Source: Phycisphaeraceae bacterium
Lineage (GTDB): Bacteria; Planctomycetota; Phycisphaerae; Phycisphaerales; Phycisphaeraceae
Reading direction: 5' to 3'
NCBI GenBank assembly: GCA_020851735.1
Contig: JADZCD010000062.1
Span: 1-64,000 of the forward strand
Length of the DNA: 64,000 bases
Shown: in pieces, positions 12,870-39,743 of the stretch
Layout of the letters: the number at the start of each line of letters is the position of its first letter
Numbering within the stretch: the first letter of the stretch is position 1
Notes under the pieces: model-generated
Seen by the model: only the letters and a program-made list of their open reading frames with translations
Databases searched by the model: none
Told to the model about the DNA's origin: nothing
Translations under genes and position numbers: made by a program

Positions 12870-14276
12870 CTACCCCACCGGCAGCGTCTTGCGCAGCAAT
12901 TCCACCACCTGCCTAACCTTCCCGATCGCCTCCTCCACGTCCTCTTTTTCAGTCATTCTGCTTAGGGAAAATCGCACCGACCCGTGCGCCACCTCCTCGG
13001 CAATCCCCATCGCCAGCAGCACCGGCGAAGGCTCCAGCGACCCGCTCGAGCACGCCGCCCCCGCCGACGCATACACCCCCCGCTCGCTTAACCCAATCAA
13101 AATCGCCTCTGCCTCCAACCGCGGGAAACCCAGATTCGTCGTGTTCCACAACCGCTGCGTCCCATCCTCGCCCACCCCATTCACCACCGTTCCCGGCAGC
13201 GCCTCAATTATCCCCTTCTCCAACCGATCACGCAGCTTCCGCAACCCTTCCACCCGCGCTCCATCAGCCACAAAATCCCTGGCCAACTCCGCCGCTACGC
13301 CCAAACCGATGATCCCCGCCACGTTTTCCGTCCCCCCACGCAGCTCCCGCTCCTGCGGGCCGCCCGTCTGCTGCGCCCGCAATTTCACCCCGCTTTTTAC
13401 ATACAACGCCCCCACCCCCTTGGGCCCGTGAAACTTGTGCCCCGCCAGCGTCATCAAGTCCATCCCCACCGCCTTGACGTCCACCGCAATCTTCCCCACC
13501 GCCTGCGTGCCGTCCACGTGAAATAACACCCCCCTGCCCGCCTCCCGGCACACCCGCGCCAACTCCGTCACCGGCTGCAACGTCCCCGTTTCATTGTTCG
13601 CCCATTGAATGCTCACCAGCACCCGCGCCACCCGCCCGACCAGTTCCGCCAACACCGCCCGCAAATCCCCCGGATCAATCCTTCCGCCCGCCCGCACCGG
13701 CAGATACCGCACCTCCACCCCCTGCCGCGCCAATTCCTCCACCGGACCGCGTATGGCTGCATGTTCAATCCGACTCGTCACCACCACCCCCGAAATCACC
13801 CCCGCCCCCGGAAGTGTCTTCTCTCTCTCCTCTCTGCTCTCTACTTTCTCCTCTCTCACTTTCCCCGCCCCCGGAAGTGTCTTCATATAGCCCGCCGCAT
13901 GCGGCGGGTGTTTGTCCGTCTCCCCAGGAGTTCCATCGTTCGGGTGCCACACAGCATCGCGAAGCGTGCTGTGTGTATTCCCAGTTTCAGCCCCCGGCTC
14001 CGCCGGGGGGTACTTCCCGCCTCCCCCCCACACCCCGCGCAACGCCAGGTTATTCGCCTCCGTACCCCCGGAGGTGAACACCACCTCCCGCGCTCGGCAA
14101 CCAATCAATTCCGCCACGCTCGCCCGCGCCAATTCCACCTGCTGCCGCACCGCCTGCCCCAGCCGATGCACGCTCGACGGGTTCGCCCAGTATTCCTCCT
14201 GCGCCACAGCCAGCGCCGCCTTAACCTTCTCCTCCGGGCGCGTCGTGGCGTTGTTGTCCAGGTAAATCCACTCCAT
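12870..14276 (-). CDS. Cysteine desulfurase (NifS/IscS type) carrying an in-frame repeat cassette
   Basis: PLP enzyme that takes sulfur from cysteine for Fe-S clusters or tRNA thiolation; 468 residues, about 80 longer than usual. Family features: YLDNNATT (5-12), FTSGGTEANNLAL, the PLP lysine in LAGHKFHGPKG and the catalytic Cys in AACSSGS. The extra length is one block at residues ~83-162 between NNLALRGV and VVVTSRIEHAAI. It is encoded by repeats of families A, B, I and D plus a CT-rich stretch, all in one open frame. The fold elements on both sides are intact, so the enzyme may still work with a long surface loop. ATG 14276 starts the family-like sequence. A second desulfurase, SufS, is in the SUF operon. 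Confidence 0.85.
   Translation of the reverse strand: MEWIYLDNNATTRPEEKVKAALAVAQEEYWANPSSVHRLGQAVRQQVELARASVAELIGCRAREVVFTSGGTEANNLALRGVWGGGGKYPPAEPGAETGNTHSTLRDAVWHPNDGTPGETDKHPPHAAGYMKTLPGAGKVREEKVESREEREKTLPGAGVISGVVVTSRIEHAAIRGPVEELARQGVEVRYLPVRAGGRIDPGDLRAVLAELVGRVARVLVSIQWANNETGTLQPVTELARVCREAGRGVLFHVDGTQAVGKIAVDVKAVGMDLMTLAGHKFHGPKGVGALYVKSGVKLRAQQTGGPQERELRGGTENVAGIIGLGVAAELARDFVADGARVEGLRKLRDRLEKGIIEALPGTVVNGVGEDGTQRLWNTTNLGFPRLEAEAILIGLSERGVYASAGAACSSGSLEPSPVLLAMGIAEEVAHGSVRFSLSRMTEKEDVEEAIGKVRQVVELLRKTLPVG
13791..14030 (-). repeat. Composite in-frame repeat cassette inside cysteine desulfurase
   Basis: About 240 bp. It contains family D (13799-13812 and 13868-13880), family I (13885-13911), family B (13942-13975) and family A (13986-14013), plus a CT-rich microsatellite-like stretch (13815-13860). 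The translated motifs are TLPGAG (D), HPPHAAGYM (I), HSTLRDAVWHP (B) and YPPAEPGAE (A). Confidence 0.85.
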
Positions 14277-14284
14277 CCCCCCAT

Positions 14285-14413
14285 TGTACCCCCGGAAGGT
14301 GAGCCCCCCGGAAGGTGTCCCCCCCCGGAGGTCGATTGTTCGGGTGCCACACAGCATCGCGCAGCGTGCTGTGTGCATTCCCCGGTTCAGCCCCCGGCTC
14401 TGCCGGGGGGTAC
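14285..14413. repeat. Repeat cluster upstream of the desulfurase (D, B, A)
   Basis: Family D words (14285-14335), a B copy (14342-14376) and an A copy (14386-14413) stand in the same order and orientation as in the cassette inside the adjacent gene. This suggests local duplication of a composite unit. Confidence 0.75.
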
Positions 14414-20006: not shown

Positions 20007-21407
20007 TCACCCCACTACGCCGTTCCAATGGTACAGCAACAGGTAAATCAACACCCCCGTCACCGACACATACATCCACAGCGGAAACCCCACCCGCGCG
20101 ATCCGCCGGTGCCAGGCATCCTTCCGCTTTAGACCCAGCACGATCAGCGTCACCGCCAACACCGGCACCGCCATCGCCAGCAGAATGTGGCTGATCAGCA
20201 TCGCGTAGTAACCCGCCTTCAGCCAATCCGGGCCCACAAATTTCGTGTGCATCCCGCCTTTCACTTCCAAACGCCACACGTAATGCGCCACGTAACAAAT
20301 CAAAAATAAACTCGACGCCCCAAACGCCGCCAGCATCGCCGCCCGATGCGCCGCGATCTTCTTCCGCTTAATCAGCACCCACCCCACCGCCAACAGCACC
20401 GCCGCCGTCCCATTCAGCGCCGCATTCACCCCCGGCAAAAACGACAAATCCCATCCCCCCTCGGAATCCTTTCCCCGTTTAGCGGGCGGACCGTAGGTCC
20501 CCTCTTCTCCCCTCTCCCTCTCTGAGGGAGAGGCCAGGGTGAGGGTGGAGACTTCCCCGCTTAAAGTGCCAGCGCCCCTGGAGGTCGCCGCGAATTTTCT
20601 GCCTTCCTCCCCCAACACCCCGATCTCCTTCACCAACCGCTCCAGCTCCGCCATCTTCAAACCATCGTAATACCCTCGAATCTTCCCCTCCTGATCCACC
20701 AGCACAAACTTCGTACTGTGAAACACCGGCATGTCCACATTGCCCGGATCTTCGCCCACCCCCAGCATGAAACTCGCCTTGCATAATTCCCAGATTTCCT
20801 CGCGCGTGCCCGTCAAAAATCGCCACCGCCCAGGGTCCGCTCCGTTCGCCTGCGCATATTCCCGCAGCACCTCCGGCCGGTCATACCCCGGATCCACACT
20901 GAAACTGATCAACTTAACCCCCCAAGCCGGACCTGAGGCCGGCTCCGCGGCCGAAGGTCCGGTTCCTCTCTCTCCCGCTCCTTCTTCCCCCCTCCCCCTC
21001 TCGGAGGGGGAGGCCGGGAGAGGGTGTAACCCTTCAACATCACCTTGCTCGCTAAAGCCCACGGACTCCTGTCCGTGGGTTGTCTTCCTGGAAAATGCCT
21101 CCGCCAACTTCCCCTGCAATCGCCCCATCTGCATCGTCATCGCCGGGCACGTCCCCTGGCAACGTGTGAACACAAAATCCGCCACCCACACCTGCCCCTT
21201 CAGTTGGCTTAGCCCAAACGCCGCCCCATCCTGATCCGTCAACACAAAATTCCCCACCTCTCCCAGCACCGGCAATTCCCCCTCCGCCAGCGCTTCCGCC
21301 GGGTCGTCCCAAACTTTCGCCGGCCCATCCTGCTGTGCGCCGACCGCCCCCCCCCAAATCACCATCGCCGCCGCCCACACTCGTATCCACGCCCCGCGCC
21401 TTTTCAT
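20007..21407 (-). CDS. SCO1/SenC copper chaperone fused to a DUF420 membrane domain
   Basis: 466 residues. An N-terminal signal or anchor precedes a thioredoxin-fold SCO domain with the copper ligands Cys83 and Cys87 (TRCQGTCP) and His230 (PVFHSTKF). SCO proteins help build the CuA centre of cytochrome c oxidase. The C-terminal domain (about 320-466) has four transmembrane helices with DUF420 features (AHYVWRLEVKGGMHTKF). Two non-homologous blocks are present: residues ~106-162, inside the thioredoxin fold, and ~274-318, between the domains. Both are encoded by repeat DNA. ATG 21407 overlaps the permease stop by 4 bp. Confidence 0.85.
   Translation of the reverse strand: MKRRGAWIRVWAAAMVIWGGAVGAQQDGPAKVWDDPAEALAEGELPVLGEVGNFVLTDQDGAAFGLSQLKGQVWVADFVFTRCQGTCPAMTMQMGRLQGKLAEAFSRKTTHGQESVGFSEQGDVEGLHPLPASPSERGRGEEGAGERGTGPSAAEPASGPAWGVKLISFSVDPGYDRPEVLREYAQANGADPGRWRFLTGTREEIWELCKASFMLGVGEDPGNVDMPVFHSTKFVLVDQEGKIRGYYDGLKMAELERLVKEIGVLGEEGRKFAATSRGAGTLSGEVSTLTLASPSERERGEEGTYGPPAKRGKDSEGGWDLSFLPGVNAALNGTAAVLLAVGWVLIKRKKIAAHRAAMLAAFGASSLFLICYVAHYVWRLEVKGGMHTKFVGPDWLKAGYYAMLISHILLAMAVPVLAVTLIVLGLKRKDAWHRRIARVGFPLWMYVSVTGVLIYLLLYHWNGVVG
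20454..20588 (-). repeat. In-frame repeat cassette between the SCO and DUF420 domains
   Basis: Family E variant (20477-20502, TTTAGCGGGCGGACCGTAGG) plus family F (20510-20550), translated as LTLASPSERERGEEG and GPPAKRGK. Confidence 0.75.
20922..21092 (-). repeat. In-frame repeat cassette inside the SCO domain
   Basis: About 170 bp: family H (20924-20966), family F (20990-21028) and family G (21054-21085, AAAGCCCACGGACTCCTGTC). Translated as GTGPSAAEPASGPA, LHPLPASPSERGRGEE and THGQESVGF. Confidence 0.8.
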
Positions 21408-22438
21408 GCCTGACCTCCGATCCTGCTCCGCCCCACCAGCTTCGCCGCCAGCAGCACCAGCCCCACCGTGCAGACAACAATCACCACCGCCGACACCCCC
21501 ACGCCCGCCGGACCATGCGTTATATCCCCGCGCCCAAACAACATCCCGCTGAACGCCGTCTGCCCATACGTCAACGGATTGATCGCCATCAGCCCCTTCT
21601 GCCACCACGGCGCCTGCGCGTACGGAAACACCGCCCCCGACAAAAACCACATCGGAAACAGCGTGATATTCAAAATCGCGTGCATCCCCGCCGACGACTC
21701 CAGCGGCCAGGCCAGGCAAAACCCGATGCTCGTCAGCGCCACCGCCACCACAAACAACACCCCCACCGCCCCCGCCATCGCCTCCCACCCCGGCCATCCG
21801 CCCACCACCGGCCAGAACGCCAGAAACAACACCCCCTGAATCGTCGCCACCGTCGCCCCCCCCAGTACCTTGCCCAACACAATCGCCAGCCGCGGCGCCG
21901 GCGACGCCAACACCCCCTGCAAAAATCCCCCCCGCCGATCCTCAATCACCGAATACGCCGTGAAGATCGTCGTGAATAACACAATCATCACCACCGTCCC
22001 CGGAAAAAAATACGCCAAATACCCCACCCCACCCCGGAACTTCCCCCCGCCCCCGGAAGCTGCCCCACCCCCGAAAACGACCTCTTGTTTAGCGGGCGAT
22101 CGCAGATCGCCGAGTTTTGAGCCCCCATTGCCGGAAATCCCCCCGAAAGTCCCCCCCTCTTCTCCTCCCCCTCTCGGAGGGGGAGGCAGGGAGAGGGTGT
22201 GGCTTCCGCCATTTCCCTGTTCTTCGAAGCCCACGGACTGCTGTCCGTGGGTCCCCTTACCCTCTGACAAATCAAACACCCTCTCCAACCCCGACCCCAA
22301 CAGCAGCCAGAAAACCACCGGCGTCGCCAGCGCCCCCATCCACCGGCTGCGCTGCCGGAAAAACCCCACAATCTCCCGCCGCCACAGCGACCAGCTGGCC
22401 AATCCCAACAACACCCCCCAACTCGTTGTCAGGTTCAT
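21404..22438 (-). CDS. ABC-2 type transporter permease with an in-frame repeat cassette
   Basis: About 344 residues with six hydrophobic segments. The C-terminal half shows the ABC-2 pattern: YLAYFFPGTVVMIVLFTTIFTA, a cytoplasmic RRGGFLQGVLASP loop and NPLTYGQTAF. It would form the membrane part of an ABC exporter, but no ATPase gene is adjacent. Residues ~58-137 between the first two helices are repeat-encoded and Gly/Pro-rich. Placement next to SCO1-DUF420 suggests a role in oxidase or copper-centre maturation, as in similar clusters. The start is uncertain: ATG 22438 or 22471. First gene of the operon, divergent from the sulfatase-like gene. Confidence 0.75.
   Translation of the reverse strand: MNLTTSWGVLLGLASWSLWRREIVGFFRQRSRWMGALATPVVFWLLLGSGLERVFDLSEGKGTHGQQSVGFEEQGNGGSHTLSLPPPPRGGGEEGGTFGGISGNGGSKLGDLRSPAKQEVVFGGGAASGGGGKFRGGVGYLAYFFPGTVVMIVLFTTIFTAYSVIEDRRGGFLQGVLASPAPRLAIVLGKVLGGATVATIQGVLFLAFWPVVGGWPGWEAMAGAVGVLFVVAVALTSIGFCLAWPLESSAGMHAILNITLFPMWFLSGAVFPYAQAPWWQKGLMAINPLTYGQTAFSGMLFGRGDITHGPAGVGVSAVVIVVCTVGLVLLAAKLVGRSRIGGQA
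22028..22267 (-). repeat. In-frame repeat cassette in the ABC permease
   Basis: About 240 bp: family D (22033-22063), family E (22088-22113, TTTAGCGGGCGATCGCAGAT), D-like words near 22140, family F (22160-22204) and family G (22226-22253). Placed in the loop after transmembrane helix 1. Confidence 0.8.
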
Positions 22439-22656
22439 CCCAACCGCTTCTCCAGACGCCTGTTCAGCCATGTCCAGTTTCCCCAAGGTGGTCCCTCCTC
22501 CTATCAGCCGGACGAGCCCATCACCTCGCGGGCCCTGAGCGTCGAAACCGCAAGCCTTCTCCGCCCCCCCAGTCCCAGCGGGGTCTGACAACAACATGTG
22601 TTGTCCTGCGGATCCTACCGCTCTATCCTATCGAGTTGACGTGAACCGGGCCGATC

Positions 22657-30188: not shown

Positions 30189-31682
30189 TTACCCCAACGG
30201 ATTTATCACCAGTCCCGTAGCCAACTTAGGATAAAAAAACGTGCTCTTCTGCGGCATCAGTTCCCCCGCCATGCTCACCGCCTTCACCGAACCCAGCGGC
30301 GTCGGCTGCACGATCACCCCGATCTGCCAACCCGGCTGATCCGCTATCTTCCCCAACTCCTCAAGCGTGTGCGGGAACTTCCACGCCACTTCCACCCCCG
30401 CCCCACCGAAGCTCGGCCCGCAAATGTCCTCCACCACCAAATGCTGCAATATCGCCACGTCCAATTGCCGCCAAGCCTCGCTGGCCTTGGGAAACCGCCC
30501 CCGCAACGGATCGCCATCCACCGTCGTGGCCACCCACAGCCGATCCGCCCCCTTCGGCTCGCCCGGCAGATAAATCCCCATCGCGTGCGCCCCCGCCGTC
30601 GGCAACGCCCGCTCTAATTCACCCAATCCCTTTTCATCCGCCGGCGCCGGCTTACCGTCCCGGCCACGGAACGGCTTTAAACTCAATTTCCCCGCCGCCG
30701 CCTTACCCAACTCCGCCGCCGTCACCGCCTGCATCCCACCCAACACCCGATGCGTCGGCAGCACAATCATCCCCGGATCCTCCATCGCCACCAACACAAA
30801 CATGCACGCCCCCCCCGGAAGTCCCCCCGGAAGTAAAGGCATCGACGAGCCGCGCGCGTCAGCAAGCGGTTCCTTATTAAACGCCCCCGGAAGTTTCAAA
30901 GCCGGACCTGAGTCCCTTCCTGGAGACGAAGGTCCGGTTCCTGCCCCCGCCTGCCCCTGCATTTCCTTTAAATAATTCAGGGCCGTGTTGTAGCGGTGAT
31001 GCCCGTCGGCAATGAACACATCCCGCCCGCGCAGCGCCTCCTGCAATAACCCCACGCTCTTTTCATCGTCGACCGCCCACACCTCATGCTCCACCCCGTC
31101 CCCCGCCGTGCGCCCGCCAAAGTCCGCCGCTCGGCCTGCCGTCAATTGCGCCAGCAATTTCCCCACCTGGTCCTGCCCGTCGGAATAAAGCCCGAAGATC
31201 GGCGATAGCTGCGCCCGCGTGGCCCGCATCAATCGCAAGCGATCTTCCTTAGGCCCGCTGAAAGTCTGCTCGTGCGGAAAAATCCCCCCGCTGCCGTCCG
31301 CCGCCGGCCCAAACGGCTGCACGGGCAAATTGGCGATCAATCCCCGCCGCGTGTGCCGCCGCCCCCCGGCCGTAAACGTCTGGTGATAGACGAAAAACGC
31401 CGGCTTCCCCCGCGACGCCAGCACCTTGCGGGCCAGCAAATCCCGATACCTAGCCCCCGCCTGCTCATACACCTCCGCCGGCCCCACCGTCTTGGCCGGC
31501 AAGTGCGGCAGATCAATCCCCACGATGTTCTGCGCACTCTGGGCCAGAAGCTTGGCTTTGTCCTTCTCATCCAGCACGTCATACGGCGGAGCGATGAGCG
31601 ACGAGATATCCGCCGGGCTCGCCCCCGCAGCCCCCAAAGCCTGGGCAAAGCAGATGGCCGGTATCGGTTCAATCTTGGGCAT
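30189..31682 (-). CDS. DUF1015 family protein with an in-frame repeat cassette
   Basis: 497 residues. The DUF1015 hallmark FIADGHHRYNTAL (residues ~223-235) and the N-terminal SSLIAPPYDVLD are present. The family is conserved in many bacteria and archaea; some relatives are kinases acting on serine, but function is not assigned here. Residues ~243-291 are repeat-encoded (GTGPSSPGRDSGPA from family H, EPLADARGSS from family L, PGGLPGG from D). The conserved sequence then resumes at CMFVLVAMEDPGMIVLPTHR. ATG 31682. Confidence 0.85.
   Translation of the reverse strand: MPKIEPIPAICFAQALGAAGASPADISSLIAPPYDVLDEKDKAKLLAQSAQNIVGIDLPHLPAKTVGPAEVYEQAGARYRDLLARKVLASRGKPAFFVYHQTFTAGGRRHTRRGLIANLPVQPFGPAADGSGGIFPHEQTFSGPKEDRLRLMRATRAQLSPIFGLYSDGQDQVGKLLAQLTAGRAADFGGRTAGDGVEHEVWAVDDEKSVGLLQEALRGRDVFIADGHHRYNTALNYLKEMQGQAGAGTGPSSPGRDSGPALKLPGAFNKEPLADARGSSMPLLPGGLPGGACMFVLVAMEDPGMIVLPTHRVLGGMQAVTAAELGKAAAGKLSLKPFRGRDGKPAPADEKGLGELERALPTAGAHAMGIYLPGEPKGADRLWVATTVDGDPLRGRFPKASEAWRQLDVAILQHLVVEDICGPSFGGAGVEVAWKFPHTLEELGKIADQPGWQIGVIVQPTPLGSVKAVSMAGELMPQKSTFFYPKLATGLVINPLG
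30810..30956 (-). repeat. In-frame repeat cassette in DUF1015
   Basis: Family D words near 30815-30835 and 30885-30895, family L (30844-30873, CCGCGCGCGTCAGCAAGCGG) and family H (30898-30941). Confidence 0.8.
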
Positions 31683-31865
31683 GGCAGTTGGTTTTCCTGA
31701 TCGTGGTCAGTCAATTTCGATCCAGCGTCCAGCCCCGCGCCGCCAAGCTGGATATCCGCGACCGCGGGCGCGTAAGTCCCACAGAGTAGCCGCTGCGGCA
31801 GAGCCCGGCCAGCCCCCCCGTTTGACGGGCACGCCCGTCCTTCCGTCCCGTTGCCAAGTCTAGAT

Positions 31866-38273: not shown

Positions 38274-39538
38274 GCGAACACCTTCACCACTTCGCGCAGC
38301 CCCTCGGCCAGCGCGTCCAATTCCTCCCGCCGGTTATACATCGCCAGCGACGCCCGCGCCGTGGCCGGCAAGTTGAAAAAGTCCATCACCGGCTGGGCAC
38401 AATGATGACCCGTCCGCACCGCGATGCCCAGACTGTCCAGAATCGTCCCCACGTCGTGAGCGTGCGCGCCTTCCACGACAAATCCCAGCACCCCCGCCTT
38501 GTGCGCCGCCGTGCCGATCAGCCGCACCCCTTCCATGTCGCTTAGCAATTGCGTGCCGTACGCCAGCAAGTCCGCCTCGTGGGCCGCCACCTGCTCAATC
38601 CCCACCGCCTGCAGGTAATCAATCGCCGCCCCCAAGCCCACCGCTCCCGCCACGTCCGGCGTCCCGGCTTCAAACTTGTACGGCAAATCGTTGTAGATCG
38701 TCTGGGCGAACGTCACCGACTTGATCATGTCCCCCCCGCCCTGCCACGGCGGCATCGCTTCCAGCAATTCCGCCCGCCCGTACAGCGCCCCGATGCCCGT
38801 CGGCCCATACAATTTATGCCCCGAAAAAGCGTAAAAATCGCAGTCCAGCGCCCGCACGTCCACCGGCGCGTGCGCCACCGCCTGGGCCCCGTCCAGCACC
38901 GCGATCGCCCCCACCCGATGCGCCAGCTCCACGATCTGCCGCACCGGATTCACCGTCCCCAGCGCGTTGGACACGTGCACCACCGACACCACCTTGGTCT
39001 TGGCGCTCAGCAGCTTGACGAATTCCTCCATGATCAATTCGCCGCGCTCGTTGATGGGCGCCACCTTCAACTCCGCCCCCGTCTGCTGGCAAACCATCTG
39101 CCACGGCACGATGTTCGAGTGGTGTTCCATCCCGCTGATCAGAATCTGATCCCCCGCCTTTAAACGCGGGCGGGCATAACTCTGCGCCACCAGGTTCAAA
39201 CCCTCGGTCGTGCCGCGCACCAGGATCACTTCCTCCGCCTTGCGCGTATTTAGAAACCGCCCGATCTTCTGCCGCGCGCTTTCAAATAAATCCGTCGCTT
39301 CCTGGCTGAGCGCGTGCACCCCCCGATGCACGTTGGAATTCGAGCCTTCGTAAAACCGGCTGAGGGCGTCGATCACCGCCCGCGGCTTCTGCGTCGTGGC
39401 CGCGTTGTCCAGGTACACCAGCGGCTGGCCGTGCACCTGCCGCTGCAGAATCGGAAAATCCTGCCGCACGCGCTCCACATCCAGCCGCGCCAACTCGCCC
39501 TGGCTGGTGACTTGCTCTTTCGCTGTGCCCACCGTCAT
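38270..39538 (-). CDS. sufS: SufS-type cysteine desulfurase
   Basis: 422 residues, class II PLP desulfurase. YLDNAATTQKP at the start, HHSNIVPWQ, the PLP lysine in FSGHKLYGPTG and the catalytic Cys in RTGHHCAQPVM are all visible. It supplies persulfide sulfur to SufU and the SufBCD scaffold. Unlike the NifS-type gene at 12870, it contains no repeat insertion. ATG 39538 is chosen over an upstream in-frame start at 39562. Confidence 0.95.
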   Translation of the reverse strand: MTVGTAKEQVTSQGELARLDVERVRQDFPILQRQVHGQPLVYLDNAATTQKPRAVIDALSRFYEGSNSNVHRGVHALSQEATDLFESARQKIGRFLNTRKAEEVILVRGTTEGLNLVAQSYARPRLKAGDQILISGMEHHSNIVPWQMVCQQTGAELKVAPINERGELIMEEFVKLLSAKTKVVSVVHVSNALGTVNPVRQIVELAHRVGAIAVLDGAQAVAHAPVDVRALDCDFYAFSGHKLYGPTGIGALYGRAELLEAMPPWQGGGDMIKSVTFAQTIYNDLPYKFEAGTPDVAGAVGLGAAIDYLQAVGIEQVAAHEADLLAYGTQLLSDMEGVRLIGTAAHKAGVLGFVVEGAHAHDVGTILDSLGIAVRTGHHCAQPVMDFFNLPATARASLAMYNRREELDALAEGLREVVKVFA

Positions 39539-39639: not shown

Positions 39640-39743
39640 GGGTGCCACACAGCATCGCGCAGCGTGCTGTGTGTCTCAGCTCCCGTTCCCCGGATATCCA
39701 CCGTCGCCGGGTGCCACACAGCAGGCCGAAGGCTGCTGTGTGC
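39640..39743. repeat. Two family B repeats between sufD and sufS
   Basis: Copies at 39640-39673 and 39709-39743 in the same orientation lie inside the SUF operon, in the 290-bp sufD-sufS gap. If the operon is one transcript, the mRNA carries two hairpins here, which could set relative expression or RNA stability. Confidence 0.8.

Follow-up and report, generated by a model that had tools for sequence, protein, structure and literature searches.

A planctomycete cysteine desulfurase carries an in-frame insert of stacked palindromic repeats, probably of REP type, in a genome where many proteins bear such repeats

The NifS/IscS-type cysteine desulfurase of an uncultured planctomycete (host assembly G000; 3.56 Mb in 69 contigs) is interrupted in frame by palindromic repeats, as an earlier note on this DNA had claimed, and the insert is likely to represent accreted REP-type palindromes that were spread by RAYTs and collected where a surface loop of the enzyme is permissive. 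The same note was right that spreading palindromes which are intergenic elsewhere have been accepted in frame inside an enzyme; its view of the desulfurase as a peculiar gene had to be given up, since the desulfurase is only one of dozens of proteins in this genome whose genes bear in-frame repeats. This bacterium appears to turn selfish palindromes into protein on a large scale, including in core enzymes, and combines several repeat families and their transposases in one genome, which shows how repeats that normally lie between genes can become protein. The question first posed by Rickettsia, how selfish DNA becomes protein without the death of the gene, is testable here by comparison of tolerant loops, surviving frames, and the link to the replication strand.

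The desulfurase gene occupies 12870..14285 (-) of the window (the whole stretch of DNA analysed, 64,000 nucleotides) and encodes 471 amino acids, with its start at about MEWIYLDNNATT. The product matches Pfam Aminotran_5 (7e-67) and NCBIfam NifS (1.6e-125, in two stretches), the latter below the family cut-off (418.8 vs 530.75 bits), with the match divided by the insert. The PLP lysine K284, the catalytic cysteine C412, and the conserved core place it in the NifS/IscS family; H175, D258, and Q261 are also present, all five residues are invariant across an alignment of 50 sequences, and outside the insert the desulfurase is intact. A functional copy elsewhere, which the earlier note had set as a challenge to its own reading, did not emerge: no second NifS/IscS-type copy was detected in the assembly at E <= 1e-30. 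A SufS-type cysteine desulfurase paralogue is located in the same window (38765-39430 (-)), with B copies just upstream of it (39640-39742). Because of this SufS-like paralogue the NifS/IscS-type gene could be dispensable, and the label of an essential-type enzyme is tentative, given the SufS-type homologue at ~38.8-39.4 kb.

The extra segment covers 81 codons (243 nt) at 13788..14030 (-), and the open reading frame runs across it without a stop or frameshift, from NNLALRGV on one side (V codon at 14031-14033) to VVVTSRIEH on the other; Pfam, NCBIfam, and PDB matches are all split in two around it. From the 5' side of the gene, the insert contains, in order, repeats D, B, and I and then two copies of motif A on either side of a CT tract. 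Repeat D (13988..14013 (+); TTCAG-CCCCCGGC-TCC-GCCGGGGG-GTAC, core given), repeat B (13942..13975 (+); GGGTGC-CACACAGCA...TGCTGTGTG), and repeat I (13889..13910 (+); ATAG-CCCGCCGC-ATG-CGGCGGG) are palindromes, as first proposed. The assignment of A as a fourth palindromic family did not stand, as A is a 10-mer without strand bias. Its two copies here (CCCCGCCCCCGGAAGTGTCTTC at 13863..13884 (+), and 13800..13821 (+)) form an exact 22-nt direct repeat with a spacing of 63 nt, separated by a tract that is CT-rich in sequence (13822..13862 (+)). A further B-D composite (14322..14413 (+)), 90% identical to 13922-14013 over 92 nt, lies 400 bp upstream of the one in the insert and ahead of the desulfurase start codon.

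Relatives were taken from the GTDB collection and belonged mostly to Phycisphaeraceae and Phycisphaerales (Planctomycetota). In agreement with the idea of an insertion, comparison with 66 orthologues, from Phycisphaerales and others, gave a loop (N of NNLALRGV to E of EH) of 19-45 residues (median 24) vs 97 residues here, and the insert was found in none of the orthologues compared. Because the relatives already own a short native loop, the net gain is ~73 amino acids rather than 81, which agrees with the 214 nt measured from the outer A copy through D; the ~80 extra residues reported before are therefore correct as extra codons but too many as a net gain. Of the relatives compared, G028 is the closest by ValS identity (N-terminal part, 87%). 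Its desulfurase loop is short and lacks the insert (L015), exact B copies are missing, and its ValS contains no RAYT, so the comparison points to a gain in the host lineage, unless G028 lost the insert, the exact B copies, and the ValS RAYT; the absence of B from this genome is weakened by its being only 66% complete.

The IscS/NifS-type fold was retained in an AlphaFold model built from 50 sequences, in line with the modelling that the earlier note had suggested: the core had pLDDT values mostly >90, and the target-normalised TM against solved IscS/NifS-type chains was mostly 0.85-0.94. Residues 89-146, which sit between helix 74-84 and strand 167-171, were mostly <50. The insert is thereby predicted to be a disordered loop on a preserved desulfurase fold. 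Since the predicted fold matches IscS/NifS-type chains and the invariant residues are present, the enzyme is probably still active with this floppy loop, which is probably nearly neutral.

The repeats were counted in a sample of 40 stretches (~787 kb, about 0.79 Mb), of which the first 20 were mostly picked around hits and the second 20 were unselected contig starts. Repeats B, D, and I occurred 70, 58, and 8 times, respectively, and zero times in order-1 shuffles; B, D, E, F, G, H, I, and J together reached 264 copies, with none in the shuffles, and are multi-copy palindromes as REPs are. Genome-wide, repeat B has 96 exact copies vs 0 for the reversed pattern, and no more than 7 exact copies were present in any of 100 relatives. 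The genome contains six Y1_Tnp (RAYT-like) genes, one of which (G000:C1:5266, L042) is bracketed by B copies; B is most readily understood as the REP-type palindrome belonging to a RAYT (Y1 transposase). Around the five others lie palindromes E, F, G/H, J, and one more kind, the sixth (all RAYT-flanking palindromes except B and E were read by eye). Neither D nor I borders any of the six Y1_Tnp loci of the assembly as that locus's own repeat; at one of them (L044), D, I, and B are nearby but within the adjoining scpA gene. Because no RAYT flanked by either was found, D and I are described only as REP-like, linked to RAYTs by likeness. The 5' feet are TTCAG (D), ATAG (I), GTTTAG (J), and GGGTGC (B), most of which end in AG, and none of these four corresponds to the canonical guide (GTAG/GTGG) on the 5' side of the hairpin; noncanonical REPs near RAYTs have been reported (PMC6006769).

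Coding calls for the repeat islands were based on a dicodon model trained on the sample. Nearly one fifth of the islands (32/166, ~0.79 Mb sample) lay in frame inside genes, as Rickettsia palindromic elements (RPEs) do, and 15/77 did so where the stretches had been taken without regard to hits. Eighteen further islands lay between same-strand coding stretches but came with a stop or a change of frame; many of these islands may be intergenic. Ten hosts were verified by NCBIfam/Pfam: ScpA (L094), DnaA (L096), TrmD (L118), TsaD (L095), PriA (L091), NadA (L109), DusB (L108), a copper ATPase (L087, two sites), ValS, and DUF1015. The DUF1015 gene (30192-31706 (-)) is located in the window and carries a repeat E copy in frame at 30845..30869 (+), and a membrane-protein ORF (21407-22627 (-), permease-like by eye) carries a repeat J copy in frame at 22088..22114 (+).

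RPEs, whose occurrence in Rickettsia has been reviewed, are reported to encode a conserved peptide (PMC10969869). Such a peptide was considered for the present repeats and rejected, because they are read on both strands and in several frames: D, B, E, I, and J are each used in three or four frame/strand combinations, and 4 to 6 of the 6 frames are open in each repeat consensus tested. The choice of frames is nevertheless uneven, as the YPPAEPGAE frame is used in 9/15 D copies, Arg-rich frames are used in 0/15, and the repeats tend toward Pro/Gly/Ala/acidic frames. It is suggestive only, but Arg-rich frames seem to be avoided, which would imply a filter on what a loop tolerates.

REP families were oriented by the 5' foot, and their orientation followed the sign of the local GC skew, with 233 copies of all families in agreement and 29 in disagreement (clustered REPs are non-independent counts, for which p-values would overstate the evidence). 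All 8 repeat I copies in the sample have a single orientation relative to GC skew. Transcription was rejected as the cause, because the in-frame REP copies track the skew (44:5) and not the gene strand (16:33), and replication is therefore the likelier cause of REP orientation. Insertion linked to single-stranded DNA during replication would give such a pattern, which also fits the requirement of Y1 enzymes for single-stranded DNA, with the lagging-strand template as their target (PMC6006769). The link is to local GC skew and not to a mapped leading/lagging strand, for the assignment of which a 16S gene was sought and none was present in the assembly. As their orientation tracks the local skew sign, REPs could also act as a strand marker for contig ordering.

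The favoured explanation draws directly on the gain relative to relatives, the multi-copy families, the position of B beside a RAYT, the skew-following orientation, the many in-frame hosts, and the intact core fold of the model. RAYT (Y1/HUH) transposases would have spread the palindromes via single-stranded DNA at replication, and some of these would have landed in the permissive surface loop of the desulfurase, where they may have persisted as translated, disordered protein because most frames are open and frame-breaking insertions are purged; later insertions and a short duplication (the two A copies, 63 nt apart) would then have stacked at the tolerated site. What counts against a RAYT origin is that D and I have no RAYT here and that the tetranucleotide guides differ from the canonical GTAG. 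The former is compatible with the possible, though rather unlikely, alternative that hairpin template switching or slippage during replication made the insert without a transposase. Such a process would also fit the replication-linked orientation, and the exact 22-nt A duplication and the B-D composite 400 bp away do resemble local copying; however, B is concentrated beside a RAYT, each RAYT gene sits among its own palindromes, and the repeat families are dispersed genome-wide.

Selection of the insert as a functional domain or regulatory loop of the desulfurase is improbable. The segment has stayed open over 81 codons and has been kept, and the frame choice is non-random (YPPAEPGAE), but purging of harmful frames explains this bias equally well; moreover, the insert is absent from every relative compared, is predicted to be disordered, and consists of repeats that occur in unrelated proteins in other frames and on other strands. 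Even less credence is given to a decaying pseudogene that tolerates repeats: the SufS-type paralogue in the same window would allow such decay, whereas the open frame, the intact active-site residues, and the lack of another NifS/IscS-type copy in the assembly (E <= 1e-30) speak against it, as do the comparable inserts in DnaA, TrmD, TsaD, and the sole ValS. Misjoining of repeats inside genes during metagenome assembly, for which a repeat-rich assembly in 69 contigs offers some ground, appears the most far-fetched explanation, as misjoins would not preserve the frame in tens of genes and an analogous RAYT-in-ValS exists in a single-contig genome (G077).

The desulfurase loop has also been enlarged in other organisms. 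In G058 and G070, which belong to another family, it contains 109 and 77 residues, respectively, and the inserts at this same place are other multi-copy palindromes of the TPALPHRAGGG and LDSRLRGND type (L011 for G058, L010 for G070), with unequal copy numbers of the TPALPHRAGGG type between the two. Their congener G054 has a 24-residue loop, yet the same repeats elsewhere in its genome. As these inserts are unrelated palindromes and the G054 loop is short, the loop was invaded on at least two independent occasions.

A second site of this kind is found in ValS. The only ValS of the genome (L089:139-3864 (+), G000:C15) holds a whole RAYT in frame, with the HUH motif NHVHVV and E palindromes on both sides. 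A related RAYT is present in frame at the same ValS site in nine relatives from several families, including G077 (loci listed for RAYT-in-ValS in relatives: L127-L130, L157-L163, L166, and L169); by coordinates, the ValS of G062 probably carries one at the same place too, and that of G054 (L147) has a different RAYT at this site. The ValS-borne RAYTs cluster on the tree with moderate support (72/85), which may reflect either a single ancient entry followed by losses or homing of a lineage to the site. It is tentatively proposed, as a possibility and not a favoured view, that the REP/RAYT systems of Phycisphaerales use coding sequence as a regular habitat and repeatedly enter the same permissive loops (desulfurase, ValS) in frame, and that one RAYT lineage may have become a lasting in-frame passenger of ValS, sharing its expression and protected from loss.

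The comparison with RPEs drawn in the earlier note is valid insofar as both are multi-copy palindromes in frame in many functionally unrelated proteins. RPEs are not the closest relatives, since at least B is of REP/RAYT type and intragenic REPs are already known (PMC3733652); the present repeats also differ in using several frames and both strands and in the presence of RAYTs, a distinction drawn from reported features. The likeness to REP/RAYT (TnpAREP) REPtrons (PMC6006769, PMC2817692, PMC3116915) lies in a Y1 gene flanked by its own palindromes and in many dispersed copies, whereas here the guides are not GTAG/GTGG and a sizeable share of copies is within coding sequence. Intragenic in-frame REPs are known from Opitutus terrae, Thauera, and Xanthomonas, where the REPs are GTAG/CGTC-tagged, some clusters encode 43-82 amino acids, and two Xanthomonas species have recB hit at nearly the same position (PMC3733652). 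These resemble the present case in that REP-type palindromes lie in frame in genes whose function is known, replication and repair genes among them; in contrast, the insert described here stacks several families that are unrelated to one another, the guides are other than GTAG, the copies are oriented with GC skew, and an essential gene also contains an entire RAYT in frame. As far as the literature search shows, the following are new: several families stacked within a single insert, an orientation of intragenic copies that is linked to skew, one loop used repeatedly by unrelated repeats in different families, and RAYT genes embedded in frame within ValS.

Motif A (CCCCCGGAAG / CTTCCGGGGG) is in marked excess, as this 10-mer occurs 333 times in ~787 kb vs ~5 expected from base composition (~65-fold). 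It was rejected as a fifth REP, being short, not a palindromic REP, and without strand bias (183:148). Motif A is often located within REP loops, such as those at L043 2641-2820 and L042 1321-1370.
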